From positions 1 through 64,000 of the forward strand of contig JASHNT010000091.1 in NCBI GenBank assembly GCA_030041495.1: a stretch of DNA of 64,000 bases, read 5' to 3'. Positions 1,347 through 48,909 of the stretch are shown piece by piece. How positions within the stretch are numbered: position 1 is the first letter of the stretch; each line of letters starts with the position of its first letter. The stretch is from Bryobacteraceae bacterium. Its GTDB lineage: Bacteria; Acidobacteriota; Terriglobia; Bryobacterales; Bryobacteraceae. Made by a program: the position numbers and the translations under genes. The notes under the pieces are model-generated. The model was not told where the DNA came from, searched no databases, and was given only the letters and a program-made list of their open reading frames with translations.

Positions 1347-1856
1347 ATGGCGATGATCAATCCCTTGAATGAATCGCCGCTGGCTTTTCCGGTTCTCGAA
1401 TGTCTTCACATTTTCGGGTTCGTTTGCGGCGTTGGGAGCATGGCGTTGGTGAGCTTCCGCCTCCTCGGCATTGGCCTTACGCGTAAGAGCGCCCGACAGC
1501 TCTGGCGCGAGACTTTGCCGTGGACTCTGGCGGGGTTGACGCTCGCCATTTCCGCCGGCCTGCTGCTGTTTTCCATCAATCCGGATGTCTATTCGTCGAA
1601 TTATACGTTCCTGGCAAAAATGGCCTTGCTTTTTCTGGCAATTGTGTTTTATTTTACAACCATCCGGCGAGCTGCCATGACTGGGAGCGCTGGCAGGTTC
1701 GCCGGGATCGCGGGCGGCGTGTCGCTCGCGCTATGGACTTTGGTTGTGTTCGGCGGAATCTTCATCGGATTGTCCGCGACGCGTCCACCCGCCGCTGCGG
1801 CGCCTCCGGCCGGTGTGAACTTTGACCAATTCTTGAACGGGACGGCGGGGAAATGA
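1347..1856 (+). CDS. DUF6644-like integral membrane protein
   Basis: A 169-residue protein with about four membrane helices and a short hydrophilic tail ending in NFDQFLNG. The first helix holds a conserved histidine followed by an RLLG motif (CLHIFGF...FRLLG). The same pattern occurs in the genes at 47876 and 48394 and in the N-terminal half of the next gene, so these four are paralogous. The layout resembles small cytochrome-b561/CopD-like membrane proteins, but haem binding is only a guess from the buried histidine. Its stop overlaps the start of the next gene (ATGA), so the two are translationally coupled. The quinoprotein at 2736 may belong to the same unit. Confidence 0.8.
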   Translation: MAMINPLNESPLAFPVLECLHIFGFVCGVGSMALVSFRLLGIGLTRKSARQLWRETLPWTLAGLTLAISAGLLLFSINPDVYSSNYTFLAKMALLFLAIVFYFTTIRRAAMTGSAGRFAGIAGGVSLALWTLVVFGGIFIGLSATRPPAAAAPPAGVNFDQFLNGTAGK

Positions 1857-2704
1857 GCTCGTACGTCTATCTGGCGCTCCTGGCGGTGCACGTGGCGTCG
1901 CTGGCATTATTCGGAGGGTTGGTCCTAGCGACTGATCTGAGATTGCTGGAGATCGGCCTGCGTGGATACTCGGTGGAAGAAATCGTCGAAGGGCTGCGCT
2001 CGCCCAGGCGGGTCGGTCTGACGTTGGCCGTTCTCTCGGGTCTGGCTTTATTCGTCGCCCATCCGGAGCAGTACCTGAACGATGGATGGTTCTGGGCCAA
2101 AATCGCACTGCTACTGCTGCTGGTGCTGAATTACGCGATGTTCCTGCGCGGGCTGAAACGGCCCAGGCTCGCCGGGGGACTTTCGCTCTTGCTCTGGACT
2201 GCTGTAGTCTGTGCGGGCCGAGGCCCGGCGACCATCAAAGATGTCATGCATTCGATGGTGGATCCCAGCGGCGATTCGGTTTTCGCCTCCGTTCAAGAGG
2301 TCGGCGACGAGCATGGCGCGCATCAGCAGGCTCCGCAAACCGGCGAGGAGTGGCAGGATTTGCGGCAGCGTTTGGAGATCTTGGAACGGACTCCGATTCT
2401 GGTCGATGGACGCAGAGCCGCGCGCATGCGGGACCGCTCCCGCAATCCGCAAAGTGAGAGCCAGCCGGAAGAGATTGAGCGAGCTCTCGACAGCGACCGG
2501 GGGGCTGTCGAGCGGCGCGCGCGAAAGCTTCAGAACGCCGCTGCGCTGGCGATCCGAGCAGTGGATGCCCGGGATACACCGGCGCTTCTGCGGTCCATCG
2601 ATTCCATCGACAAAGCCTGCGAGAATTGCCACCTGCATTACTGGTACCCCAACGATAAGCGAGCCCGGCAGGCGGCCAAGGAGGACGGCGTCACCGACTA
2701 CTGA
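1853..2704 (+). CDS. Membrane domain fused to a C-terminal c-type cytochrome domain
   Basis: A 283-residue protein in two parts. Residues 1-125 form about four membrane helices of the DUF6644 type (conserved LLAVHVASLALFGG then DLRLLE). Residues about 125-283 are soluble and helical and end with one haem c motif, CENCH at 256-260, about 23 residues from the C-terminus. A haem motif near the end of a four-helix domain starting MHSMVDPSGDSVF is the architecture of cytochrome c'/c556. No signal peptide is needed, since the membrane part would place the haem domain in the periplasm. The gene overlaps the preceding DUF6644 gene by four bases and lies 31 bases before a quinoprotein gene. An electron-transfer role is inferred. 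Confidence 0.8.
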   Translation: MSSYVYLALLAVHVASLALFGGLVLATDLRLLEIGLRGYSVEEIVEGLRSPRRVGLTLAVLSGLALFVAHPEQYLNDGWFWAKIALLLLLVLNYAMFLRGLKRPRLAGGLSLLLWTAVVCAGRGPATIKDVMHSMVDPSGDSVFASVQEVGDEHGAHQQAPQTGEEWQDLRQRLEILERTPILVDGRRAARMRDRSRNPQSESQPEEIERALDSDRGAVERRARKLQNAAALAIRAVDARDTPALLRSIDSIDKACENCHLHYWYPNDKRARQAAKEDGVTDY

Positions 2705-2735: not shown

Positions 2736-4355
2736 ATGCTGTTCAGCATGCATCTGCGCACCCTGTTGCTGTTTTGCGCTTCAACGGTATCGTTTGCCCA
2801 AAACGTTACCTTCGACCGGCTGCTGCATCCGGAAAAGGAGCCTCAGAACTGGCTCAGTTATTCCGGCTCGCTCAACGGGCAGCGGCACACACTGCTCAAC
2901 CAGATCACTCCGGCGAACGTGAAGAACCTGGAGCTGCAATGGGTCTGGCAGGCTCGGTCCACCGAAAAATTCGAAACCACTGCGCTGGTGGTGGATGGAG
3001 TGCTGTACACGATTCAGGCTCCGGACGACGTATACGCTTTGGACGCCGTGACGGGCCGCATTTTCTGGACACTTCCGTACCCCGATGCCGCCAACGGCAA
3101 CCCCTGTTGCGGGCGCGTAAATCGCGGGCTCGCCATCCTCGGCGACACGCTGTTCATGGGCACTCTGGACGCGCATTTGCTCGCCATCGACGCGAAGTCG
3201 GGCAAGATCATCTGGAACACGCAGGTGGCGCAGCCCTCGCAGGCCGAGCGTTACGTGATCACGCACGCTCCGCTGGTGGTAAAGGATAAGGTGATCGTCG
3301 GGACGGCGGGCGGCGACACCGGACTGCGCGATTTTATCGCGGCGTTCGACGCGAAGACCGGCAAAGAGGTTTGGCGCTTCTACACCGTTCCGGCCAAAGG
3401 CGAGCCGGGCAACGAAACCTGGGCTGGCGATTCGTGGCAAAAAGGCGGCGGAGCCATCTGGAACACCGGCGCCTACGATCCCGATCTCAATCTTACTTAT
3501 TGGGGCACCGGCAATCCGTACCCGGACACCAACGGGGATGTGCGGCTCGGCGACAATCTGTACACGGATTGTGTACTGGCGCTCGACCCCGACACGGGCA
3601 AACTGAAATGGTTTTACCAGTTCACGCCGCACGACCAGATGGATTACGATTCGACGCAAGTGCCGGTACTCGCCGACATCCAATGGCAGGGCCGCCAGCG
3701 GAAAGTGATGATGTGGGGCAATCGCAACGGAGTGTTTTATGTGCTCGACCGCGGCACGGGGCAGTTTCTGCTCGGCAAGCCCTTCACCACGGCGAACTGG
3801 TTGACCGGGTTCGATGAAAAGGGCCGGCCGATGCGTGCCCCGGGAAAGGAGCCGACGCCGGAAGGCAGCCTGGTGATGCCGACCGTGCTCGGCGGAACGA
3901 ATTGGTATCCGCCGTCGTTTAATCCGTCGACCGGTTTGTTCTACATCTCAGCTTGGGAGAACACCGGAACCATCCAGGTGAAGGGCGGGCGCGGTCCGGC
4001 GTACGGCGGTCCGAATCCGATGGCGCAGGTTAATCTCACAACGAACACCAAGCGCGAATCCGACGGGATCGGAGTGGTCCGCGCCATCGACCCGCACACC
4101 GGCGACAAGAAGTGGGAGTTCAAAATGGCCGACATTACCTGGGCAGGCGTGCTGACCACGGCATCCGACCTGTTGTTCACCGGCGGCCGCGAAGGCTACT
4201 TCTTCGCACTGAACGATAAGAACGGAGAGCTGCTGTGGAAGGCCTCACTGGGCGGGCAAGTGAACTCGGGGCCGATGAGTTATGCGGTGAATGGACGGCA
4301 GTACATCGCGGTCGCGGCCGGGAGTGCGCTATTCGTCTACGCGTTGCGGCAGTAG
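2736..4355 (+). CDS. PQQ-dehydrogenase-fold quinoprotein (acidobacterial type)
   Basis: A 539-residue exported protein with a signal peptide (LLLFCASTVSFAQ) and the repeated W-motif blades of the methanol/ethanol dehydrogenase propeller (for example ALDAVTGRIFW, AIDAKSGKIIW, ALDPDTGKLKW). It has the adjacent cysteine pair C124-C125 (NPCCGRVNRG) and the HDQMDYDSTQ segment near residue 300 that corresponds to the catalytic aspartate region. There is no fused cytochrome domain. The sequence strongly recalls the acidobacterial families called acido-empty-quinoproteins, whose members occur in genomes lacking PQQ synthesis, so activity with PQQ is not assured. The preceding membrane cytochrome is a plausible electron acceptor. 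The start could also be the ATG at 2748. Confidence 0.88.
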   Translation: MLFSMHLRTLLLFCASTVSFAQNVTFDRLLHPEKEPQNWLSYSGSLNGQRHTLLNQITPANVKNLELQWVWQARSTEKFETTALVVDGVLYTIQAPDDVYALDAVTGRIFWTLPYPDAANGNPCCGRVNRGLAILGDTLFMGTLDAHLLAIDAKSGKIIWNTQVAQPSQAERYVITHAPLVVKDKVIVGTAGGDTGLRDFIAAFDAKTGKEVWRFYTVPAKGEPGNETWAGDSWQKGGGAIWNTGAYDPDLNLTYWGTGNPYPDTNGDVRLGDNLYTDCVLALDPDTGKLKWFYQFTPHDQMDYDSTQVPVLADIQWQGRQRKVMMWGNRNGVFYVLDRGTGQFLLGKPFTTANWLTGFDEKGRPMRAPGKEPTPEGSLVMPTVLGGTNWYPPSFNPSTGLFYISAWENTGTIQVKGGRGPAYGGPNPMAQVNLTTNTKRESDGIGVVRAIDPHTGDKKWEFKMADITWAGVLTTASDLLFTGGREGYFFALNDKNGELLWKASLGGQVNSGPMSYAVNGRQYIAVAAGSALFVYALRQ

Positions 4356-10984: not shown

Positions 10985-12364
10985 ATGAGAGCGGTCTGCT
11001 GGCTGTGTGTCCTTCCCGTCTGCGCCGCCTGGGTTCCCGCTTGGGCTCAGGATCAGCGCAGCGTCAGCGAGCCGAAAATCCCTCCCGTCTGCACGACTCT
11101 TAAAGCCGATCTCGCCTCAGAACAGGGAAAATTGCGTGAAGACGAAGAGCGCCGGCTGGACACTGCGCGCATTCAACAAGCGCTCGACGCCTGCTCTAAA
11201 GATCATGCCGTTGAGTTAAAAGCCGATGGCTCGCGCAACGCCTTCCTTTCCGGTCCGCTGGATCTGCGAGCCGGCGTCACCCTCCTGGTCGATGAAGCCG
11301 TGACACTATTCGCCTCCCGCGATCCTCGCGTTTTCGATATCGCGCCGGGCGTTTGCGGCACCGTCACGCGGGGAGGGCCGCGCGGATGCCGCGCTCTGCT
11401 TAACGGCAATCAAGTAGACGGCGCGGGCGTGATGGGACCCGGCACCATCGACGGCCGCGGCGGCGAAAAGCTGCTCGGCCAGAACGTCACCTGGTGGGAT
11501 CTGGCGGAGCAGGCCCGCAAGGGCGGCATCCAGAACAATTTCCGCATTCTTGTTCTGTCCCGCTGCGACAATTTCACCTTGTATAAGATCCATCTCAAGG
11601 ATTCACCCAACTTCCACGTCGCCTACAGCGGCGGCAACGGATTCACCGCCTGGGGCGTCATCGTCGACGCTCCGCAGAAAGCCCGCAACACCGATGGCAT
11701 CGACCCCGGCAATTCCACCAACGTCACCATCACCCACAGCTTCATCCGCGCCGGCGACGATAACGTCGCCATCAAGGCCGGCCCGGGCGCGCCCACCACG
11801 CACATGACCATCGCCCACAATCATTTCTACTACGGGCATGGCATGTCCATCGGCAGTGAAACCAACGGAGGCGCCAGCGCCATCCGCGTCACGGACCTCT
11901 CCATCGACGGCGCCGATAACGGCATTCGCATCAAGTCGAACTCCGCCCGCGGCGGCCTGGTGCGCGACATCGTCTACGACGGCGTCTGCATCCGCGGGAC
12001 CAAAAACCCGCTGCTGTTCGACACGCATTATTCCGGCAACGGCTACGTCGAAACCGGCAGCAATATTCCCGACTTTCGTGACATCGTGCTGCGCAACGTG
12101 TGGATCGCGGGGCCAGGCAACGTCACCCTCGACGGCTATGATTCAGACCGGCGTCTGGGCATCACGTTCGATAACGTGGCGTTAAACAATGTAGCGAGCC
12201 CGACGCAGCCCGTTGCGGTGACCGCGCAACACGCCAGCATCGTTTTGGGCCCCGGTCCGGTAAACTTCCGCCCGGTGGGCGAAGATGTGATCGTGAGCGG
12301 AAAGCCCGGTCCGGGAAAGGCCAGCTCGTGTGAGGACAAATTTGTTCCCTTCCCGATACACTAG
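10985..12364 (+). CDS. Glycoside hydrolase family 28 protein (polygalacturonase-like)
   Basis: A 459-residue exported enzyme with signal peptide MRAVCWLCVLPVCAAWVPAWA. It has the right-handed beta-helix pattern of GH28: LNGNQVDGAGVMGPGTIDGRGG, then NTDGIDPGNSTNVTI (the NTDG aspartate), RAGDDNVAIKAG (the GDD pair), GHGMSIGSETNGG (the GHG histidine) and IRIKSN (the RIK). All catalytic residues of polygalacturonases are therefore present. I use the ATG at 10985; a TTG 39 bases upstream is actually the -35 box. The MFS gene overlaps its 3' end by 35 bases. It releases galacturonate or oligogalacturonides that the next genes import and catabolise. Confidence 0.94.
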   Translation: MRAVCWLCVLPVCAAWVPAWAQDQRSVSEPKIPPVCTTLKADLASEQGKLREDEERRLDTARIQQALDACSKDHAVELKADGSRNAFLSGPLDLRAGVTLLVDEAVTLFASRDPRVFDIAPGVCGTVTRGGPRGCRALLNGNQVDGAGVMGPGTIDGRGGEKLLGQNVTWWDLAEQARKGGIQNNFRILVLSRCDNFTLYKIHLKDSPNFHVAYSGGNGFTAWGVIVDAPQKARNTDGIDPGNSTNVTITHSFIRAGDDNVAIKAGPGAPTTHMTIAHNHFYYGHGMSIGSETNGGASAIRVTDLSIDGADNGIRIKSNSARGGLVRDIVYDGVCIRGTKNPLLFDTHYSGNGYVETGSNIPDFRDIVLRNVWIAGPGNVTLDGYDSDRRLGITFDNVALNNVASPTQPVAVTAQHASIVLGPGPVNFRPVGEDVIVSGKPGPGKASSCEDKFVPFPIH

Positions 12365-40817: not shown

Positions 40818-43313
40818 CTAGAACAGCACTTCGAAATCGAAGCGGTAACGGCGGTGGTAATTGCCGAAGAAGATTCCGTACTGCGGGTCGGCGATGTTGT
40901 CATGAACGGCGAGCGCGTTGAAGTGGTTGGTCAGGTTGAAGCCCGTGAGGGATAGACGGAGGGTGTATTTGGCGTTGACCTTGAGATCCTTCATTACGCG
41001 GGCGTCGGCGGAAAAGGAATCGGGCAGGCGGGTTGAGTCGCCGTAAGGAATGCCGACGTAATTCTGCAGGGCATCGAGGGTGGCGTAAGGAAAGCCCGTG
41101 CGGAACTCGATCAGAGGCATTACGTACAAATCCCACAGGTGGGCCTTTAGCCGGCCCCAAATCAGCAGGCGGTTGGGAACGTCGGCGGGGAGATTGCCGT
41201 AGACGTCGGGCCGGATGATGGGCGCGGGAAAGTTGCCCAGGAAGGAATCGAAGGTATTGAGGCTGCCTTCAGAGCGGCTGTGCGTGTAGGTGATATTGAG
41301 CTGCTGGCCGGATTTCCAAGAGAATTTGCCGGAAACCTCCAACTGGCGGTAGCGCGACTGGCCGTCGCCGTTGAGCACGATCTCGTCCACCTGCGGTTCG
41401 GGATCGAGCACCACCAGGCCGACGGCGCGATTATCGGTATACACGGCGCGGGCCCGGAAGAAGGAAGTGAAGCTGCGCTCCAGTTGCAGATTGAGCGTGT
41501 TACCGCGCGGCGAAAAGGCGCCCGCGACCTGCTCTCCATGCACCAGGAAGGAGCGGGGACCGTTGATGCTGCCGATGACGTTGACGTACGATACCGGGTC
41601 GCCGATGATGCTGCCGTCGGGCGCGTAGTAGGTGATGGTGCGCAGCGGATAGCGGCCGAAGGTGTAAATGTCCAGCGGCAGGTGGTCGTAGAAGGTGCCG
41701 TAGCCGGCCCGAAAGACGGTTTTCTGATCGGCGAAGGGGCTCCAGGCCAAGCCCACGCGCGGCGCGATGCGCAAGCTTTCGGCCAGCCTTTGGTGCTCGA
41801 TGCGGGCTCCGTAGTCGACAGAGAGGCGCGAGTTGAGCGACCAGTGATCCTGCACGTAGGCGGTGACCTCCAAGTCGCTGCGATTGAAGGGCGCGAGATC
41901 GGAGAAGGTGATGCGCTCCTCGAGCACACCCGCGGCGTCTTCGATATCGACGGGACGGTAGTCGAAGCGGCCCTGGTCGGCGGCATCGGTTAAAGACGAT
42001 CCCATCTTGACCAGGTGCGTTCCGGCGAGATGGAACGGCGCGAGCGACCAAGTCTCCAGCCACTCCGTGCGGCTGGCGCTGCGCGTTTGCGTGCCGAAAT
42101 AGTTGCCGAGCTCACCCTGCGGCATGATCACCAGATCGGACGTGCCCTGCGCCCACACGTTCGCGTCGAAGCGCTGGATGGATACGCTGCTATCGATCAG
42201 GCCGTTCAGGAAGGCGAAGCGGTCGAGGAGAGTGCCTGCGTAATTCTGCTGGGCGTAGCTGGGCGTGGTGGGCTGCGGAGTGAAGTAGTTGGGATTGACG
42301 TAGTTGATCTGCTGGGGACTCCAATGAAAGTCCGCGGTCAAAATTTGCTTGTCGGAAAGGATGTAGTCGAGCTGAGTGAAGGAATTCTTGGTCTGCTGCT
42401 TGGAGACGTTAGCCGGGAAGTATAACGTGCGATTGGGAACCTTATCGAGAATATATTGCAGCGAGCTGATGAAATACAGGCGGCTTTTAATCAGCGGACC
42501 GCCCAGCACGAAGCGAGGCGTCTCATTGCGGATGCCGGCCATGTGGAGACTGCGGATGCGGAAATCGGGAAACGGGTCATTGAGCGCGACGTGCCACTTC
42601 TCTCCGCCGCGGCGGGTCTCCACGGCCACCACGCTCTGCGTGAATCGGCCATACTGAGCCAGGAAGGGCGCGTTCAACACGTTAACGGTTTCGATGGCGT
42701 CCACTGGGACGCTTTGCACGAATTTTCCGGTAGCGGGGTCCGTGATGTCGCTTTGATTCACCACCATCGCACTGCGCTCCTGGCCGGCGCCGTCGATCTT
42801 CAACTCGCCATCGGGAGCGCGCACCACTCCGGGTTCCAGCGGCAGGGCCTCATCGATGGTGGCGGGATTGGTGGGCAGGTTCTGCACGTCGGCGGGCCGC
42901 AGCTCATTGTTCTGCGCGGCGCTTTGTTCGACGGGAGGCTGCGCGGCGCTGACTTCGACGGAGGTCGCCTGATGCTGGGGCGTGAGCACGACGGTGATTT
43001 CCTGCCGGGCAGCGGATTCCAAGCGGACTGGAACCATGGTGGTCTCAAAGCCTTCTTTGGCAACAGCGACTTCCCACGCGCCGCAGGGCAAGCCGGCGAA
43101 CTCAGTGAATCCTTCCGTGTCGGTGGCGCGGCCGGGAGGCGAAACCGCTCCGGAACTCAGATGGACACTGGCATCCACCACGGGAGCTTCCTGGGAATCG
43201 ACGACGAAAACGCGCAACTCGGCGGGCGCGCAGGTCTGCGCGCGAAGATACGGCTCCGAGGCTAGCAATAGCATCGCCGCGGACGAAAGCCGCGACCAGG
43301 GAATCCCGCACAT
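40818..43313 (-). CDS. TonB-dependent receptor with carboxypeptidase-regulatory-like N-terminal domain
   Basis: An 831-residue outer-membrane protein. After a signal peptide (to about residue 26) comes a carboxypeptidase-regulatory-like domain (LRVFVVDSQEAPVVDASVHL ... FAGLPCGAWEVAVAKEGFE), then a plug-like region (about 115-240, with SVPVDAIETVNVLNAPFLAQYG) and a large beta-barrel ending in YRRYRFDFEVLF, a typical terminal strand. This is the OmpA-like TonB receptor class that is expanded in Acidobacteria for import of plant-derived oligomers. It is followed on the same strand by nothing coupled, but the exported cluster at 43383-45412 is transcribed towards it and may be in the same unit (gap 69 bases). 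Confidence 0.92.
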   Translation of the reverse strand: MCGIPWSRLSSAAMLLLASEPYLRAQTCAPAELRVFVVDSQEAPVVDASVHLSSGAVSPPGRATDTEGFTEFAGLPCGAWEVAVAKEGFETTMVPVRLESAARQEITVVLTPQHQATSVEVSAAQPPVEQSAAQNNELRPADVQNLPTNPATIDEALPLEPGVVRAPDGELKIDGAGQERSAMVVNQSDITDPATGKFVQSVPVDAIETVNVLNAPFLAQYGRFTQSVVAVETRRGGEKWHVALNDPFPDFRIRSLHMAGIRNETPRFVLGGPLIKSRLYFISSLQYILDKVPNRTLYFPANVSKQQTKNSFTQLDYILSDKQILTADFHWSPQQINYVNPNYFTPQPTTPSYAQQNYAGTLLDRFAFLNGLIDSSVSIQRFDANVWAQGTSDLVIMPQGELGNYFGTQTRSASRTEWLETWSLAPFHLAGTHLVKMGSSLTDAADQGRFDYRPVDIEDAAGVLEERITFSDLAPFNRSDLEVTAYVQDHWSLNSRLSVDYGARIEHQRLAESLRIAPRVGLAWSPFADQKTVFRAGYGTFYDHLPLDIYTFGRYPLRTITYYAPDGSIIGDPVSYVNVIGSINGPRSFLVHGEQVAGAFSPRGNTLNLQLERSFTSFFRARAVYTDNRAVGLVVLDPEPQVDEIVLNGDGQSRYRQLEVSGKFSWKSGQQLNITYTHSRSEGSLNTFDSFLGNFPAPIIRPDVYGNLPADVPNRLLIWGRLKAHLWDLYVMPLIEFRTGFPYATLDALQNYVGIPYGDSTRLPDSFSADARVMKDLKVNAKYTLRLSLTGFNLTNHFNALAVHDNIADPQYGIFFGNYHRRYRFDFEVLF

Positions 43314-43382: not shown

Positions 43383-44228
43383 TCAGTGCTTAGATTGATC
43401 CACTTCGCCCTCGATGCAGGCGAACTCCAGATGCTCAAACTTGGGATCGAGGATGCGGCTGTAGAAATACCGGATGGTCCAGGGACGAGTGTAGGCTTTA
43501 GGATCGTCGATGGTGGCCTCGTATTGCAGGTTGTTCGAATCGAGCGGAGTGATGCGCTCGACCACGTGGATCGCATCGCTGTGGACATTGGCGGACTGGT
43601 CGAGCCAGGTGCGGGCTACCTGGTTGGTCACGTCGATGACCAGAGTATCGCCGTCCCACTTGCCGCGCGAGTCGCCTTCCCACAGATGGATTTCGGGAGC
43701 GATGTGCGGGCGGCCGTCCATGGGCACGATGCGGTAGGCGTGCATGAACTCCCAGGTGAAGACCACGTAGCCGGGAGGCTGCAAAATGCGCATGCCGAAG
43801 GGAGTGTACATCTGATGCGGGACTCCGCCCAGGAAGCAATGCGCGTCGGACTCCTCGATCATGTGGTTCTCGCTGAGATCGATTTGCTTCCGGCGGAATT
43901 CGGGCTTATAAGGGATCACTCCGTCGGGCGGATCGATGATGATTCCCGCGGTGGGAGGAATATTGGTCTGGGGATGGCCGCTGGTTTTTTCGACCGAGAA
44001 CATCGACATAGAATTGCCGATGGTGCGTTGGAGCCACGCTCCTTGCAGATCGGGTTTGCCGCCGGGGAGGCGAACGATGGGGCCGCCCTTGACCTCCGGC
44101 GGCGACACGTAAGGGTTGGGGAACAACAAAGGGTCGACGGGACCGCGCCCGCGGCCGCCGCCGGGGCCTTGCGCAAGCGCAAGCGCGCAACAGGTGGAGA
44201 AAATTGCCAGGGTTTTGCGCAGCCTCAT
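43383..44228 (-). CDS. Secreted protein with W-x-G-D-S-R-G-x-W-D-G-D-T-L-V motif (paralogue 1)
   Basis: A 281-residue exported protein (signal peptide MRLRKTLAIFSTCCALALA). Landmarks are GGKPDLQGAWLQR, a DPPDGVIPYKPEFRRKQ segment, CFLGGVPHQMY, then WEGDSRGKWDGDTLVIDVTN, RTWLDQSANVHSDAIHVVERI and a final CIEGE. The same ordered landmarks occur in the next gene upstream, so the two are paralogues. I know this as a large unnamed family in Acidobacteria and Proteobacteria; no function is established to my knowledge. Its ATG overlaps the stop of that gene (ATGA), proving coupling. Confidence 0.8.
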   Translation of the reverse strand: MRLRKTLAIFSTCCALALAQGPGGGRGRGPVDPLLFPNPYVSPPEVKGGPIVRLPGGKPDLQGAWLQRTIGNSMSMFSVEKTSGHPQTNIPPTAGIIIDPPDGVIPYKPEFRRKQIDLSENHMIEESDAHCFLGGVPHQMYTPFGMRILQPPGYVVFTWEFMHAYRIVPMDGRPHIAPEIHLWEGDSRGKWDGDTLVIDVTNQVARTWLDQSANVHSDAIHVVERITPLDSNNLQYEATIDDPKAYTRPWTIRYFYSRILDPKFEHLEFACIEGEVDQSKH

Positions 44229-44980
44229 TGCTTCTTGTCGCCCACGGTAAAGGTGGGGCCTTCCTTGTTCGCGTAGCATTCGTACTCCATGATCTGCGCG
44301 TTCTTCCTGACATCGCGAGCCAGCGTCAGGTGGATGGTGAAGGGCTTGGTCAGCACTTTCGGATCGGTCATGGTGGCCTGATAGGCGATGGTGTTGGGAC
44401 CGGTGCGCGTGAAGCGCTCGACCACGTGGAGGTCGCCGCTGTGATAATTACCGGCGGCATCGTACCAGGTCTGGTCATTGAAATTGGTCGCTTCGACCAC
44501 CAGGGTGTCGCCGTCCCAATGCCCGCGCGAATCGCCCAGCCAGTTTTCAAGGCCGTCGAGATGCTCACCCTGCATCTGGATATTGCGAATGACGTGGACG
44601 TATTGGGAAAGAATCGGAATTACCGGCTGATTTGCGGATTCGACAATTTGATACGGATATGGGATGTACATCAGGCGAGGAACGCCGGGCATCCAGCATT
44701 TGGTCAAGGGATCTTCGGTGGCGCGCTTTTCGGCATTGGCCTTGCGCTGCGCCAGAGCCTCCGGCTTGTAGGGGATCTTGCCGTCCTCAGGATCGACGAT
44801 GATGTTTTTGCCCCCGAGCTTGGCTTCGATATTGGCGTCCACCTTGCCCTGCACTTCCCAGATGCCGTTCAGATCGGGATGGCCGTCGGCCAGCCGGGGG
44901 GCGGAGTACCCCTTGCTTTGCGCGACTGCGGGTACACTGGCGGCCGCGGCCGCCAACAACAACGTAGTCCAGATTTTCAT
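44225..44980 (-). CDS. Secreted protein with W-x-G-D-S-R-G-x-W-D-G-D-T-L-V motif (paralogue 2)
   Basis: A 251-residue exported protein (signal peptide to VPAVAQ). It shows the same landmarks as its neighbour: ADGHPDLNGIWEVQ, DPEDGKIPYKPEAL, KCWMPGVPRLMYIPYPYQIV, NWLGDSRGHWDGDTLVVEAT, QTWYDAAGNYHSGDLHVVER and YECYAN near the end. It starts on the base next to the stop of the DUF6152 gene and overlaps the following paralogue, so 45412-43383 is one operon. The conserved Asp, Arg and Trp residues and paired Cys suggest a small-molecule or sugar-binding sheet, but this is conjecture. Confidence 0.8.
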   Translation of the reverse strand: MKIWTTLLLAAAAASVPAVAQSKGYSAPRLADGHPDLNGIWEVQGKVDANIEAKLGGKNIIVDPEDGKIPYKPEALAQRKANAEKRATEDPLTKCWMPGVPRLMYIPYPYQIVESANQPVIPILSQYVHVIRNIQMQGEHLDGLENWLGDSRGHWDGDTLVVEATNFNDQTWYDAAGNYHSGDLHVVERFTRTGPNTIAYQATMTDPKVLTKPFTIHLTLARDVRKNAQIMEYECYANKEGPTFTVGDKKQ

Positions 44981-45412
44981 TTACTGTTTGGTCTGCGGGC
45001 CGGGCTCGCTCGCTCGATTGCCTTCCGAGGAGCCGGCGAGCAGGGTCCTGCCATCGGGGGTCTTGACGCTGCGCGCGTTGATGGTGTTAGAACCGTTCTT
45101 GGCAAGGCTGCCGGTGACGACGATCTCCTCGCCCTCCTTCATCATGTCCTTGCGCCAGCCGTTGCGGTAGAGCGTGTTGGGAGGGCCGGTCTCGATATCC
45201 CAGGTTTCCATTTTGCCGGTGGCCGGATTGACTGCTTCCATATGAATCCAGGAGTGGGGATTCACCCAGTCCATCTTGGTGAATTTGCCGGTGAGCGTGA
45301 TGGGTTTCTGGGAGTCGTATTCCGCGGCGAAAGAATGGTGGGCTGCCAGCGGCGCAGCGGCCAGGACCGCTGCCGCGATCGCGCCCATCGCTAGCTTGTT
45401 GCTGAATTTCAT
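44981..45412 (-). CDS. DUF6152 family exported protein (copy 1)
   Basis: A 143-residue exported protein. The signal peptide ends at AAHHSFA, and the mature N-terminus HHSFAAEYDSQKPITLTGKF followed by KMDWVNPHSWIHM is the DUF6152 signature. The domain reads like a small OB-type barrel. The ATG at 45412 starts a clear signal peptide; a longer reading does not. It is the first gene of the minus-strand operon with the two W-G-D-T-L-V paralogues. A divergent DUF6152-like gene starts at 45537, so the 124 bases between must contain back-to-back promoters. Confidence 0.85.
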   Translation of the reverse strand: MKFSNKLAMGAIAAAVLAAAPLAAHHSFAAEYDSQKPITLTGKFTKMDWVNPHSWIHMEAVNPATGKMETWDIETGPPNTLYRNGWRKDMMKEGEEIVVTGSLAKNGSNTINARSVKTPDGRTLLAGSSEGNRASEPGPQTKQ

Positions 45413-45536
45413 TGTTACCTCGCCTGTGATTGACGCTAACATCCGGGTTGCGAGATAGTCAAGGCGAAGGCGGGCGCGGCAGAAACAAGCGAGGTGCGTT
45501 TCCATGTGCTAGGCTTTGGGCATCGGGAGGGCCTAA

Positions 45537-45977
45537 ATGCGAACTCGCCGGCTGTTCCTAAGCACGATATTGACCTTGGTCCCCGCATTCGGGCACCATG
45601 TCGTGGCAGATGAATTCGACGTCTCGAGGAAAATCAGAATTAGCGGCACAATTTCCAATGTAGAGTTCGCCAATCCTCACGTCACATTCTCCTTAGATGT
45701 GAAGAACCCCGACGGCACAGTGACCCGCTGGAAAGTCGGGACCGTTTCTCCCAATGTTCTGATCCGTAACGGCATAACAAAGGCGCTATTTGCGCAAGGA
45801 ACGACGCTTGTCGTAGACGCTTACCCCGCTAAAGACGGGTCTCCGAGAGCGGAAGGCCGTGCCCTGACATTCTCCGACGGGAGGCAGTTCGCGTTGCGCG
45901 ATCCGGGGCAGAGCGCCTGCTCGGGGCCGGGTTGCATCACCTGTGCGGACTGCGATGGGTACTGGGTGAGGAAGTAA
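45537..45977 (+). CDS. DUF6152-like exported protein (copy 2, divergent)
   Basis: A 146-residue exported protein related to DUF6152: after the signal peptide comes GHHVVADEFDVSRKIRISGT, then NVEFANPHVTFSLDVKNPDG and PNVLIRNGITKALFAQG. The His-His pair and the FANPH element are conserved, but HSFA is replaced by HVVA. It ends with a cysteine-rich tail, CSGPGCITCADCDGYW, not seen in the other copies and suggestive of metal binding or disulfides. It is transcribed away from copy 1 and towards the 46065 gene. Confidence 0.8.
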   Translation: MRTRRLFLSTILTLVPAFGHHVVADEFDVSRKIRISGTISNVEFANPHVTFSLDVKNPDGTVTRWKVGTVSPNVLIRNGITKALFAQGTTLVVDAYPAKDGSPRAEGRALTFSDGRQFALRDPGQSACSGPGCITCADCDGYWVRK

Positions 45978-46064
45978 CATCAGGATCACGCCGGGCGACG
46001 CTTGCTGCCACCAGACCAGCGTTGTATGATTTCTTGGACTCCTCGCGAAGCGTGAGAGATCCAA

Positions 46065-47393
46065 ATGAGAGCCAGACTGTTCGTTCCGTTCGTGTTCCTG
46101 CTCTTGATCGCGCTCATCTGGCTGTCGCCGGCGGCTCCTAATGCCAGTGCGCAGCAACCCGCTGCGCAATCAAACAGCGCCCAACAGCCGCCCGCCGGAC
46201 GAGGCGCAGGGGGATTTGGCGGGGCTCCCAGAGGCGCAGGATTTGGACGCGCGGGCACGCCGACGTTTGCGGGCCCTCCAGCCGGGATGAAGCCGCTGCC
46301 CATCGATCTTTTTTCGTCGAAGAATTTCTATAAAGATCGGCAGTATTGGTCTGACCAGCGCTATTTCCGCTGCAACACGCCGCGCCAGATCACCGACATC
46401 TGGACATCAGGCCGCATCGGAAAAAATCCTCCGCTTTCGGCGTCCTGGGGGGACTGCAGCATGGACTACCCGCGCGAGAAGATCGTCAGCCCGTATCCTT
46501 ATAAGACTGCCAAGGAGCACTACGAGGCCTTGATGGCGGCGGCGAAAGCCAAGGGCGGGCCGACCATCTACACCAAGGCGACCATTCCGGACTGGGATGG
46601 TTACTATACTCGCGATCAACGCGCGGATCACGGAGCGGAATGGATCTGGGGCACCGTCAATCAGGTCCCCACGATTCTTTCGCTGCTCACGCCCGAGTAT
46701 CAGAAGCGCATGGTGCAGATGAATTATCACGAGGGCGTGGACAACGCTCCGCAATGGGAAGCTTCCTTCTGCTATCCGGAGGGTTTCATGCGCTGGTGGG
46801 CGCAGGCATCGCAAGGCGGAAATTTCCAGCTCACGATGACGCCGTGGAACATTCAATTTCTCTCCGGCATCGCGGCCAATTTTTTGCGGCAGGTGTTGAT
46901 CGGCAAGGAGCACGTGCAGAAAGTCCCGCAGTGGTATGGCGAGACGGTGGGCTTCTGGGACGGCACCACGCTGGTGACCTGGACCGCGAACGTGCAGGCC
47001 TGGACGCTGTCGCATTCCATGTTCGAATACAGCGGCAAGCTGGAGACGGTGGAGACGTTCAAACCGGTCAACGATGCAAACGGTAAGTTCATCGGCCTGG
47101 ATCATGAGACCGTGTTCTACGATCCGGAAGCTTTCGTGCAGCCGCTGCGGGCGACGTATCGCTACGCGCGGCGAGCTACGCCGGATGATCCGGCGCGGCG
47201 CTACACCTACATCGAGTGCCTCAGCAATTTGCGCAACGTCAACGGCCGGCCGGCACAGTTGACCAAGGCGGATCCGCGTTACATCGATTATTACGGGCGG
47301 CCCTGGGCGCAGGATTGGGAGAAATATTTCGAAGTGGGTTGGGACAAGCCGGACGACACGCTGCCGCAGGATATTCTGGATTTATTCAAGTGA
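46065..47393 (+). CDS. Large exported protein, distant relative of the W-G-D-T-L-V family
   Basis: A 442-residue exported protein with a long signal/membrane segment ([17 protein letters not shown]) and a Gly/Ala/Pro-rich linker to residue 75. The folded part has [20 protein letters not shown], then [39 protein letters not shown] and [12 protein letters not shown]. The segment [16 protein letters not shown] followed by LSHS and an E-T-F strand mirrors the WDGDTLVxxxTN ... HSDxLHVVERF order of the paralogues at 43383 and 44225, which suggests common ancestry. Family unnamed to me. It is followed after eight bases by another DUF6152 gene. Confidence 0.75.
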
Positions 47394-47401
47394 GGAACAT
47401 C

Positions 47402-47860
47402 ATGAGAACGAAATTATTTGTGCCGCTCGCGCTGGCGGCGGCTCTGTTGGGGATGGCGGGGACGGCGCTGGCGCATCACTCCTTCGCCATGTACGATCAG
47501 ACCAAGACTGTGACGCTGACCGGCGTGGCGTATCAATTCATCGCGCAAGCCAATCATGCCGAGATTCACTTTTACCGGGTTGGACCGGATGGCAAACTGG
47601 TCAAGGCGAAGGACGGGAAGTATGAGGATTGGGGCGTGGAGATGGCCGGCGCGGCGGCAGTCGCCCAGCAGGGCATCACGGCGGATTCGTTCAAGGTGGG
47701 CACGATCTTCAGCGTGAAGATGAATCCGCTGCGCGACGGCAGCAATTTCGGATCGCGCGTGGGAGCCATCGCCAAATGCCCGTGGAAGACTCCGCCAGAG
47801 CCGGGCAAGACCTGCGACACGGTGAAGGGCAGCGAGATTCTGGGCGGAAGTACGTTCTAA
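47402..47860 (+). CDS. DUF6152 family exported protein (copy 3)
   Basis: A 152-residue exported protein: signal peptide to GTALA, then HHSFAMYDQTKTVTLTGVAY, the DUF6152 signature. The middle carries a longer insertion than copy 1 (VGPDGKLVKAKDGKYEDWGVEM), followed by GITADSFKVGTIFSVKMNPLRDGS. Two cysteines near the end (AKCPW and KTCDT) could pair. The ATG at 47402 follows GTGAGGAAC. It lies between the 442-residue protein and two DUF6644 genes in one plus-strand operon. Confidence 0.85.
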   Translation: MRTKLFVPLALAAALLGMAGTALAHHSFAMYDQTKTVTLTGVAYQFIAQANHAEIHFYRVGPDGKLVKAKDGKYEDWGVEMAGAAAVAQQGITADSFKVGTIFSVKMNPLRDGSNFGSRVGAIAKCPWKTPPEPGKTCDTVKGSEILGGSTF

Positions 47861-47875
47861 CTCGGGCACAGTTGC

Positions 47876-48376
47876 TTGAAACAGTTTGCCGAGTGGTTAT
47901 CGACGACGCCTCCCAGCGTTTTCATTCAGGATCACAACGCCTGGGTGATTCCTACCATTCAGTCGATCCACATCGCCGGCATCGGAGTGGTGCTGGGCTC
48001 GGCGTTCTTCATTTACTTGCGAATCCTGGGTTGGGCGGGGACGGATCAGACGCTGCGCGAGACCGTGAATCGGTACGGTCCGTGGCTCACCGGAGCGCTG
48101 TGGGTGATGCTGGCGACGGGAATCCTGATGGTGATCGGCGAGCCGGTGCGCGAGCTGGTGACGTTTTCGTTTTGGGCGAAGATGATTCTGGTGGCTGCAA
48201 TGGCGGCGGCCGCGGTCCGGTTTCAGCGCGCGGACCTGGAGGGCTTACCGTCGCGAAGACTTGTAAGGAGCCTGGCGATCCTGACCTTCCTGATCTGGGT
48301 GTGCATTATTATTCTGGGGCGGTTGATCGCGTATGACCACGTATGGGGCTCCTGGTCGCCGGCGACAAAAGCCTGA
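47876..48376 (+). CDS. DUF6644 integral membrane protein (copy 1 of this cluster)
   Basis: A 166-residue four-helix membrane protein starting with TTG at 47876. The first helix has TIQSIHIAGIGVVLGSAFFI followed by LRILG, the same His and R-x-L-G pattern as the genes at 1347, 1853 and 48394. It ends with a short polar tail. Fifteen bases separate it from the DUF6152 gene and 17 from the next DUF6644 gene, so the set is one operon. A role as membrane partner of the exported DUF6152 proteins is inferred from this repeated adjacency. Confidence 0.8.
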   Translation: MKQFAEWLSTTPPSVFIQDHNAWVIPTIQSIHIAGIGVVLGSAFFIYLRILGWAGTDQTLRETVNRYGPWLTGALWVMLATGILMVIGEPVRELVTFSFWAKMILVAAMAAAAVRFQRADLEGLPSRRLVRSLAILTFLIWVCIIILGRLIAYDHVWGSWSPATKA

Positions 48377-48393
48377 GCGTGGTTTAGCGGAGC

Positions 48394-48909
48394 ATGATCG
48401 ATCAGTTTTTAAAATGGCTGGCTTCGACGGCGCTGGCGACCAACATTCGCGAATCGCTGCTGCTGTTTCCATTGCTCGAATCGGCGCATGTGTTTTCGCT
48501 CGCGCTGGTGGTGGGAACGATCCTCGTGGTCGACTTGCGCTTGCTGGGGCTCGCCTCGGCGCAGCGTCCGTTCGAGCGCGTGGCCTCCGATACTTTTAAA
48601 TGGACCTGGGGCGCGTTCGCGCTGACTGCGGCGACGGGGTTGTTGATGTTTACGACGAACGCTCCGGTGTACTATCACAATTTCTATTTCCGGGCCAAGA
48701 TGATGTTGCTGTTGGCCGCGGGCGTGAACATGCTGATCTTTGAGTTGAGCCGCAGGAGTGTGGAGCGAATAGGCAAGGCGGTGGCCATCGCTTCCCTGAC
48801 GCTGTGGCTGGCCGTCATCTTCATGGGCCGCATGATCGGCTTCACCACTACGCGAGCCGCGGAAGTGAAGCCTCCTCCCACGCAGAATTTCGACGATTTT
48901 CTGAAATAA
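48394..48909 (+). CDS. DUF6644 integral membrane protein (copy 2 of this cluster)
   Basis: A 171-residue four-helix membrane protein: FPLLESAHVFSLALVVGTIL then DLRLLGLA, a central helix WGAFALTAATGLLMF, YFRAKMMLLLAAGVNML and a tail QNFDDFLK. The tail almost matches that of the 1347 gene (NFDQFLNG), supporting close paralogy between the two loci. It is the last gene of the plus-strand operon, facing the convergent efflux pump gene. Confidence 0.82.
   Translation: MIDQFLKWLASTALATNIRESLLLFPLLESAHVFSLALVVGTILVVDLRLLGLASAQRPFERVASDTFKWTWGAFALTAATGLLMFTTNAPVYYHNFYFRAKMMLLLAAGVNMLIFELSRRSVERIGKAVAIASLTLWLAVIFMGRMIGFTTTRAAEVKPPPTQNFDDFLK

Follow-up and report, generated by a model that had tools for sequence, protein, structure and literature searches.

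Two divergent, tightly coupled operons at positions 43,383 to 48,909 of a 64,000-nucleotide stretch of DNA from a Bryobacteraceae bacterium (Acidobacteriota; GenBank assembly GCA_030041495.1, contig JASHNT010000091.1, positions 1 to 64,000; hereafter the window) encode three DUF6152 proteins (D), three exported proteins of a family marked by WDG[DT]TLV (W) and one tandem pair of DUF6644 proteins (M1 and M2; the family, M). An earlier note on this DNA had described the eight-gene cluster with its overlaps and proposed that it encodes a system; all eight open reading frames (8/8 ORFs) were confirmed in their places. Here we show that no fewer than three bacterial phyla have members in which D, W and M travel together, and we hold with high confidence that D, W and the M1-M2 pair form a real conserved module. 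The focal cluster would be one copy of a Gram-negative envelope module composed of D, W and M1-M2, accompanied elsewhere often by a c′-like cytochrome (C) and a TonB-type receptor.

Co-occurrence and synteny

Across 297 genomes of the phylum (thresholds of E 1e-10 for W and 1e-3 for D and M), D was detected in 39, W in 38 and M in 42, 39 of the last over the cut-off. M is present in 39/39 D genomes and W in 37/39 (hypergeometric P for the overlap ~1e-45 and 1e-43, uncorrected for descent; all P values in this study ignore relatedness). One genome that is 75% complete (G080) has W only, and three have weak M matches only. Among the 26 genomes listed for family f2, 6 carry D and M and 20 carry neither, an all-or-none pattern which suggests that the two were gained or lost jointly in that family. 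Where a genome has exactly two M matches (n = 14), 12 cases have D no more than 1.6 kb from the pair and W at that locus. The exceptions are G199, whose pair is away from D, and G277, where D and M are on two contigs, each close to the start. A set of 20 regions was chosen from M matches, several of them already known to lie near D.

The same genes adjoin one another in distant bacteria. A scan of genome contigs with a W alignment, covering the best 80 of 575 relatives, gave 79 loci; among the matches listed, 58 loci have D and 10 have M, and 29/79 are titled outside the Acidobacteriota, 23 of these 29 with D (three misfitting pathogen titles left out). The order D-W-W-M-M on one strand recurs in Methylobacillus glycogenes, Derxia lacustris, a Methylococcales metagenome-assembled genome (MAG) and Methylomonas methanica, while W-W-D convergent with M-M is found in two Gemmatimonadetes-titled MAGs and likewise in the home phylum (loci L116 and L126-L128). 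On plasmids we found D-W-M-M in Sinorhizobium mexicanum, W-D-W-D, M-M and a TonB receptor in Sphingobium sp. TomTYG65, D-D-W with a TonB receptor in Croceibacterium and, in Novosphingobium humi, W and DUF6152 close to two genes annotated as DUF6644 (all Alphaproteobacteria). Nine ORFs join D to W in a single polypeptide, with D N-terminal (L085, L098, four in L213, L201, L205 and L145), and one, in the window, joins M to C. Core gene counts were taken from six-frame profile matches, because the ORF caller misses short genes beneath long antisense ORFs. With presence coinciding almost perfectly across 297 genomes and the genes sitting together in distant bacteria, the claim of a system made in the earlier note is supported.

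Closest named W relatives, among the best 80 of 575, are mostly MAGs of Acidobacteria and Bryobacterales. Three MAG records bear pathogen titles, L142 and L146 (Bordetella parapertussis) and L214 (Klebsiella pneumoniae); these are probably wrong, because the W of L142 is 67% identical to a window protein and the other relatives are mostly of the MAGs just named.

Profile matches in the home genome (6.12 Mb, 144 contigs) number 50 for D, 24 for M and 98 for W, of which 44/50, 23/24 and 64/98, respectively, lie within the stretches examined. Contigs C10 and C29 have two D matches each for one apparent gene, and the gene estimate is ~48 D and ~95 W. Some 36/50 D matches are within 2 kb of W, as are 28/41 D clusters against 2.65 expected (P ~4e-24, clusters treated as independent), so that the neighbourhood check set in advance in the earlier note returned a strong association. 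M is again tandem, 21/24 matches being within 500 bp of another M. That note had also considered the case of DUF6644 and DUF6152 usually lying far apart; in the home genome most DUF6644 genes are indeed away from DUF6152, 3/12 M clusters being within 2 kb of D. Ten other genomes, hand-picked and mostly rich, gave 2 to 131 W and 1 to 46 D matches, not in proportion to each other (the W counts of G077 and G206 are lower bounds).

Protein families

Pfam places the three window D proteins clearly in DUF6152 (PF19649; E 3.6e-30, 2.1e-23 and 1.8e-18; 104.4, 82.7 and 66.8 bits; cut-off 27). Two histidines right after the signal peptide (His1 and His2) and the histidine of an NPH-type motif are all present in 144/145 D domains, a count that covers all D profile matches in the loci examined (146 domains, one entry, the C-terminal piece of a split gene, set aside) with a profile itself built from an HH[SA]-selected alignment. 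That alignment comprises 40/44 DUF6152 copies with HH[SA], thinned to 36, plus one, and its invariant HH is partly by choice because the copies were selected on it. The sole exception is in L098, where a D-W fusion carries Gln-Gln and Arg at the three positions; this single joint loss suggests that the three histidines form one site. The residue preceding His1 in the alignment is Ala in 139, Gly in 5 and Val in 1. By the A-x-A rule mature D would begin His-His; window signal peptides were called by eye and from the pattern A-x-A followed by HH, with no predictor. Histidine-brace metal proteins, whose mature chain starts with histidine and holds metal through the N-terminus and a second histidine, would be a candidate class for D. 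We infer that D binds a metal at His1-His2 and the NPH histidine.

The AlphaFold2 model of D is a confident oligonucleotide/oligosaccharide-binding (OB) fold (predicted local distance difference test, pLDDT, 90.5), for which PriB and SSB gave the best rows in fold comparison (best Z 9.2, root-mean-square deviation (rmsd) 3.0 over 82), itself a prediction. CopC models did not match any of 37 D members at E ≤ 0.1, and no copper protein stands among the 50 rows shown of either fold comparison. Pfam matches of D to CusF, CcmE, DUF5666 and others are weak; CcmE, sub-threshold in Pfam, also has one row in the fold comparison (8ce8_E, E 0.023). Against sequences of the PDB, D matches an adhesin (E 1.7e-6) and S-layer proteins. 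One DUF6152 gene of the home genome, beside a W gene (L072; contig C29, 8322-9455), is in two pieces in different frames and would be either a broken copy or an assembly error.

W has no such family label: W1-W3 gave nothing over cut-off in Pfam and NCBIfam, and 44 W paralogues gave a single weak Pfam match, in one paralogue, at E ≤ 0.1. Pfam families of lipocalins and fatty-acid-binding proteins (FABPs), and YceI, had no match in these 44 members at the same threshold, nor did PDB sequences match W at E ≤ 1. W1 and W2 are 36% identical over 246 aligned columns, and W3 has a 120-column region in common with one leftward W (25%, E 2e-9). The earlier note had read WDG[DT]TLV followed by HS-x2-HxVE-like elements in all three large proteins; their relatedness holds and the second element is exact in W1 and W2, whereas in W3 it is degenerate (YSGKLETVE). 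Among the 44 paralogues C74 is invariant and C214 nearly so (44/53 W references were aligned; a second W alignment took 11/16). The AlphaFold2 model (pLDDT 91.4) predicts an FABP-like barrel: Foldseek returned CRABP entries as top matches (E 9e-4, TM 0.36/0.54), and in the VIA comparison 50/50 best rows belonged either to NanoLuc-type barrels or to the FABP family (FABP, CRBP, bile-acid-binding, myelin P2), with Z reaching 9.3 at an rmsd of 3.3 over 115, a middling score by the tool's own note. On this predicted fold, W would bind a lipophilic ligand.

Several W genes stand apart. At C128:11144-14331 of the home genome four W genes follow one another with neither D nor M, the longest such run among the W matches listed. 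At C98:11435-12358 CarboxypepD_reg matches 11435-11674 and W matches 11756-12358; both matches fall in equally long open frames (337 aa) and therefore probably belong to one W protein with an N-terminal domain typical of TonB receptors. A 431-aa protein of N. humi considered as a long W was rejected for having no similarity, and long W of the W3 type had no match on the plasmids.

M1 and M2 are likewise clear members of their family, DUF6644 (PF20349; E 1.7e-7, 32.0 bits, and 6e-14, 52.9 bits; cut-off 27 bits). Alignment of 63/71 M sequences left His31, Arg48, Gly81 and Lys101 invariant, and tandem pairing holds for 74/75 M sequences. With one invariant histidine per subunit and subunits encoded in pairs, M would suit a heme or metal site common to M1 and M2. 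DUF2214 matches 28/63 M and CopD 3/63 at E ≤ 0.01 (best E 8.5e-5); against CopD, window M1 scores 23 bits (cut-off 32.1) and M2 has no match. Cytochrom_B561 matches none of the 63 members at E ≤ 0.01. Earlier suggestions that DUF6644 lies in the membrane, that the larger proteins bind something and that D acts outside would fit these predicted folds.

C has a C-terminal CxxCH, and several members start like lipoproteins (by eye). Its ten profile seeds were chosen for CxxCH, so the motif in the seeds reflects selection. The cytochrome c′ model PF01322 is over its 26.5-bit cut-off in 2/5 C proteins scanned (L220, 33.7; L163, 26.8) and below it in L188, L116 and L130. C lies within 1.5 kb of M in 22/49 M-bearing loci, 10 of which seeded the profile and 12 of which did not; a further 6 clear and 2 weak C matches are away from any M or in M-less loci.

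Gene layout and neighbours

Features of the window are collected in Table 1. In the leftward operon D1 abuts W1, whose stop overlaps the start of W2 in ATGA; the start of W2 is 44228, a mechanical ORF start at 44279 being too early. Gaps in the rightward operon, from D2 through W3, D3 and M1 to M2, are 87, 8, 15 and 17 bp. Both domains of the receptor, OMP_b-brl_4 and CarboxypepD_reg, are over cut-off.

Table 1. Positions of the focal cluster, its receptor-type neighbour and the second M locus in the window
Feature	Position	Strand	Description	Remark
TonB-dependent receptor type	40818..43313	-	Outer-membrane barrel with CarboxypepD_reg domain	Follows W2 after 69 bp
W2	43383..44228	-	WDGDTLV family	Start overlaps W1 stop
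W1	44225..44980	-	WDGDTLV family, exported	Predicted FABP-like barrel
D1	44981..45412	-	DUF6152, exported, NPH; inferred mature N-terminus HHSFAAEYD	Pfam; predicted OB fold
D2	45537..45977	+	DUF6152, NPH motif; inferred mature N-terminus HHVVADEFD	Pfam
W3	46065..47393	+	Long W member, 442 aa	
D3	47402..47860	+	DUF6152, ANH replaces NPH; inferred mature N-terminus HHSFAMYD	Pfam
M1	47876..48376	+	DUF6644, first of tandem pair, with invariant His	Pfam
M2	48394..48909	+	DUF6644, second of tandem pair, with invariant His	Pfam
Second M pair, first member	1347..1856	+	M-profile match	DUF2214 below cut-off
Second M pair, second member	1853..2704	+	DUF6644 fused to c′-like cytochrome domain, CxxCH	
PQQ-dependent dehydrogenase type	2736..4355	+	Beta-propeller	31 bp after M-cytochrome fusion

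Of the TonB-type receptors of the home genome, taken as PF25183 matches plus the window's own, 9/36 have D, W or M no further than 2 kb away, where 3.9 would be expected (P 0.013), or 8/35 against 3.8 (P 0.03) without the window's own receptor. Receptor-type neighbours within 3 kb recur in proteobacterial loci (L137-L140, L163, L175, L177 and L179). The suggestion in the earlier note that the adjacent receptor may deliver substrate is plausible, though weaker, with a 2-kb excess at P 0.03, none at 500 bp and recurring proteobacterial adjacency.

Genes of the pyrroloquinoline quinone (PQQ)-dehydrogenase type are themselves greatly expanded in the home genome (~47, from 83 matches merged by hand). 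This family was rejected as a regular partner: 7/47 have D or W within 3 kb, where 5.2 would be expected, and the 2 within 3 kb of M against 0.7 expected are not significant (P 0.17). The dehydrogenase 31 bp beyond the M-cytochrome fusion, a spacing to which we give no weight, is a possible electron donor.

By raw count, 12 loci have a protein cluster of cytochrome c and PQQ type no more than 3 kb from the core, 10 have short-chain dehydrogenase/reductase (SDR) genes near it and 9 have amidase genes. An exported rhodanese-like protein stands near TonB-type receptors and the module in L163 (6918-7406), L132 (14561-15037) and, by eye, L133 (3887-4381), a neighbour common to Methylobacillus and a home-phylum genome. 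Exported GlcG/HbpS-like proteins adjoin the module in L141 (6719-7216; Sinorhizobium, by Pfam) and L133 (4386-4880; home phylum, by eye).

A proposed mechanism and its alternatives

Our preferred account, which we put forward tentatively and as possible rather than probable, is a periplasmic module, fed by TonB, in which lipophilic compounds are bound and redox chemistry linked to metal or heme runs through D, M1-M2 and C. The TonB receptor would admit lipophilic or poorly soluble compounds, and the W barrel would hold what is imported. D would dock on W (the two are sometimes one polypeptide), and its metal, which would most probably be copper, would sit at the N-terminal pair His1-His2 and the histidine of NPH. 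The ligand in W might then undergo redox chemistry that C and M1-M2, whose invariant histidines would hold heme or metal, couple to the quinone pool; that M1-M2 carries electrons, and in which direction they flow, we infer. Many paralogues would serve many ligands. A bolder form makes D-W a new type of periplasmic metalloenzyme, in which an OB-fold protein with a copper site of two N-terminal histidines plus NPH acts on lipophiles held in an FABP-like barrel, with its own electron path through M1-M2 and the c′-cytochrome and with ~100 substrate-specific copies in some soil Acidobacteriota; this we consider speculative and unlikely.

Several observations weigh against the preferred account. The receptor excess is weak and vanishes within 500 bp (3/36 against 2.5 expected), and PQQ dehydrogenases within 5 kb of D or W are at most marginally enriched (12/47 against 7.2 expected, P 0.05). 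Two of the 39 D genomes (G171 and G277) have D and M with no W at 1e-10. Only 4/12 M clusters of the home genome have D or W inside 2 kb (0.93 expected, P 0.011), and most D-W copies are therefore without an M of their own; W far exceeds D in some genomes (at least 131:11 in G077), the ratio in G293 being 49:43. The 1.5 kb on either side of the focal M pair hold no C-profile match and no CxxCH ORF. When nine M loci of the home genome were checked, C was found only in the window's other pair, as the fusion, and two further CxxCH ORFs at such loci do not match the C profile. The cytochrome link thus holds for relatives and for the window's second M pair, not for the focal copy. Finally, the fold matches of D and W are predictions with middling scores.

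Other functions can be read from the same genes. Lipophile uptake or sensing without redox, in which W binds with D as a cap and M1-M2 passes the ligand or a signal across the inner membrane, would agree with the FABP-like fold predicted for W, with TonB receptors at the window and at proteobacterial loci and with the large paralogue sets expected from ligand diversity. It leaves both the histidine triad of D and the c′-like cytochrome beside M, once fused to it, unexplained, and we regard it as unlikely, though a credible competitor. Unlikely too is acquisition of a metal (copper) in the manner of CopC-CopD or YcnI-YcnJ, with D as periplasmic carrier, M1-M2 as importer and W carrying a TonB-delivered hydrophobic chelate. 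The copper site of YcnI uses an N-terminal histidine, and D has its histidines directly after the signal peptide; TonB receptors are nearby, the CopD matches among M and the 23 bits of M1 point the same way, and copper-binding YcnI, encoded with the putative importer YcnJ, offers a precedent. Yet D has a predicted OB-like fold and lacks a CopC match, one cell would hardly need ~48 metal carriers and ~95 hydrophobic carriers, and the associated c′-like cytochrome points to redox.

Envelope protection, with W collecting peroxidised lipids or quinones which M1-M2 and C reduce, has a similar architecture behind it: the BcnA/YceI lipocalin and the LcoA cytochrome b561 are encoded by linked, in places fused, genes in many Gram-negatives (PMC9113575). 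We think it decidedly improbable, given that neither YceI nor b561 models matched at our thresholds, a copy number that suggests substrate diversity over one housekeeping task, and fusions of D to W and M to C with none of W to M. Least probable by far is that there is no system, only independently expanded families adjacent by chance or local duplication. Large paralogue numbers do make chance adjacency common, and M in the home genome is mostly away from D and W; but D, W and the pair stay together in distant bacteria and in genomes that have a single M pair, and this reading is already contradicted by the coincident presence and absence, the synteny and the fusions.

Relation to known systems

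Of described systems, BcnA-LcoA resembles the module in encoding an exported lipocalin-type barrel (in W a predicted, FABP-like one) with a membrane protein in linked genes, fused in places. It differs in that W lacks a YceI match and M a b561 match, and in that the module adds D, with its predicted OB fold and three histidines, the paired M, the c′-like cytochrome and the D-W and M-C fusions. CopC-CopD and YcnI-YcnJ likewise set a CopD-like membrane protein beside an exported one whose chain starts with histidine, as mature D is predicted to do, whereas D has no CopC match and a predicted OB fold, M resembles CopD only below the family cut-off, W is without a counterpart and the module has far more paralogues. 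Because the defining domains were searched for without a qualifying match, the module does not belong to CopC-CopD or YceI-b561. SusCD-type modules place a TonB-type receptor beside exported binding proteins and undergo lineage-specific expansion to dozens of copies, both points of likeness; here, however, the candidate binders are predicted FABP-like barrels, there is an inner-membrane pair and elsewhere a cytochrome, and linkage to the receptor is weakly enriched.

Membership of D and M in DUF6152 and DUF6644 is clear, but these labels carry no function. None of the open-licence papers searched names DUF6152, DUF6644, PF19649 or PF20349, nor did we find in them an association of D, M, W and the cytochrome, most subscription journals being outside the scope of the search; the text of a paper on gene duplication in Solibacter (PMC3174227) has none of the five terms looked for. 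The composition of the module is accordingly undescribed, while TonB-linked envelope binding or redox modules are already known as a kind.

Discussion

Beyond the cluster that the earlier note had described, this analysis adds a three-histidine signature in D, an FABP-like fold predicted for W, a cytochrome partner, fusion genes and expanded paralogue sets. About 170 profile matches in the home genome, with similar numbers in related genomes, fall in families that are unlabelled or bear only a DUF label. Seen as a single module that has a fixed architecture and is marked by a strict histidine signature and by a cytochrome as partner, this large unknown gene block becomes one testable question, for which the compact D-W-W-M-M operons of the named isolates Methylobacillus glycogenes, Derxia lacustris and Methylomonas methanica provide testable hosts.

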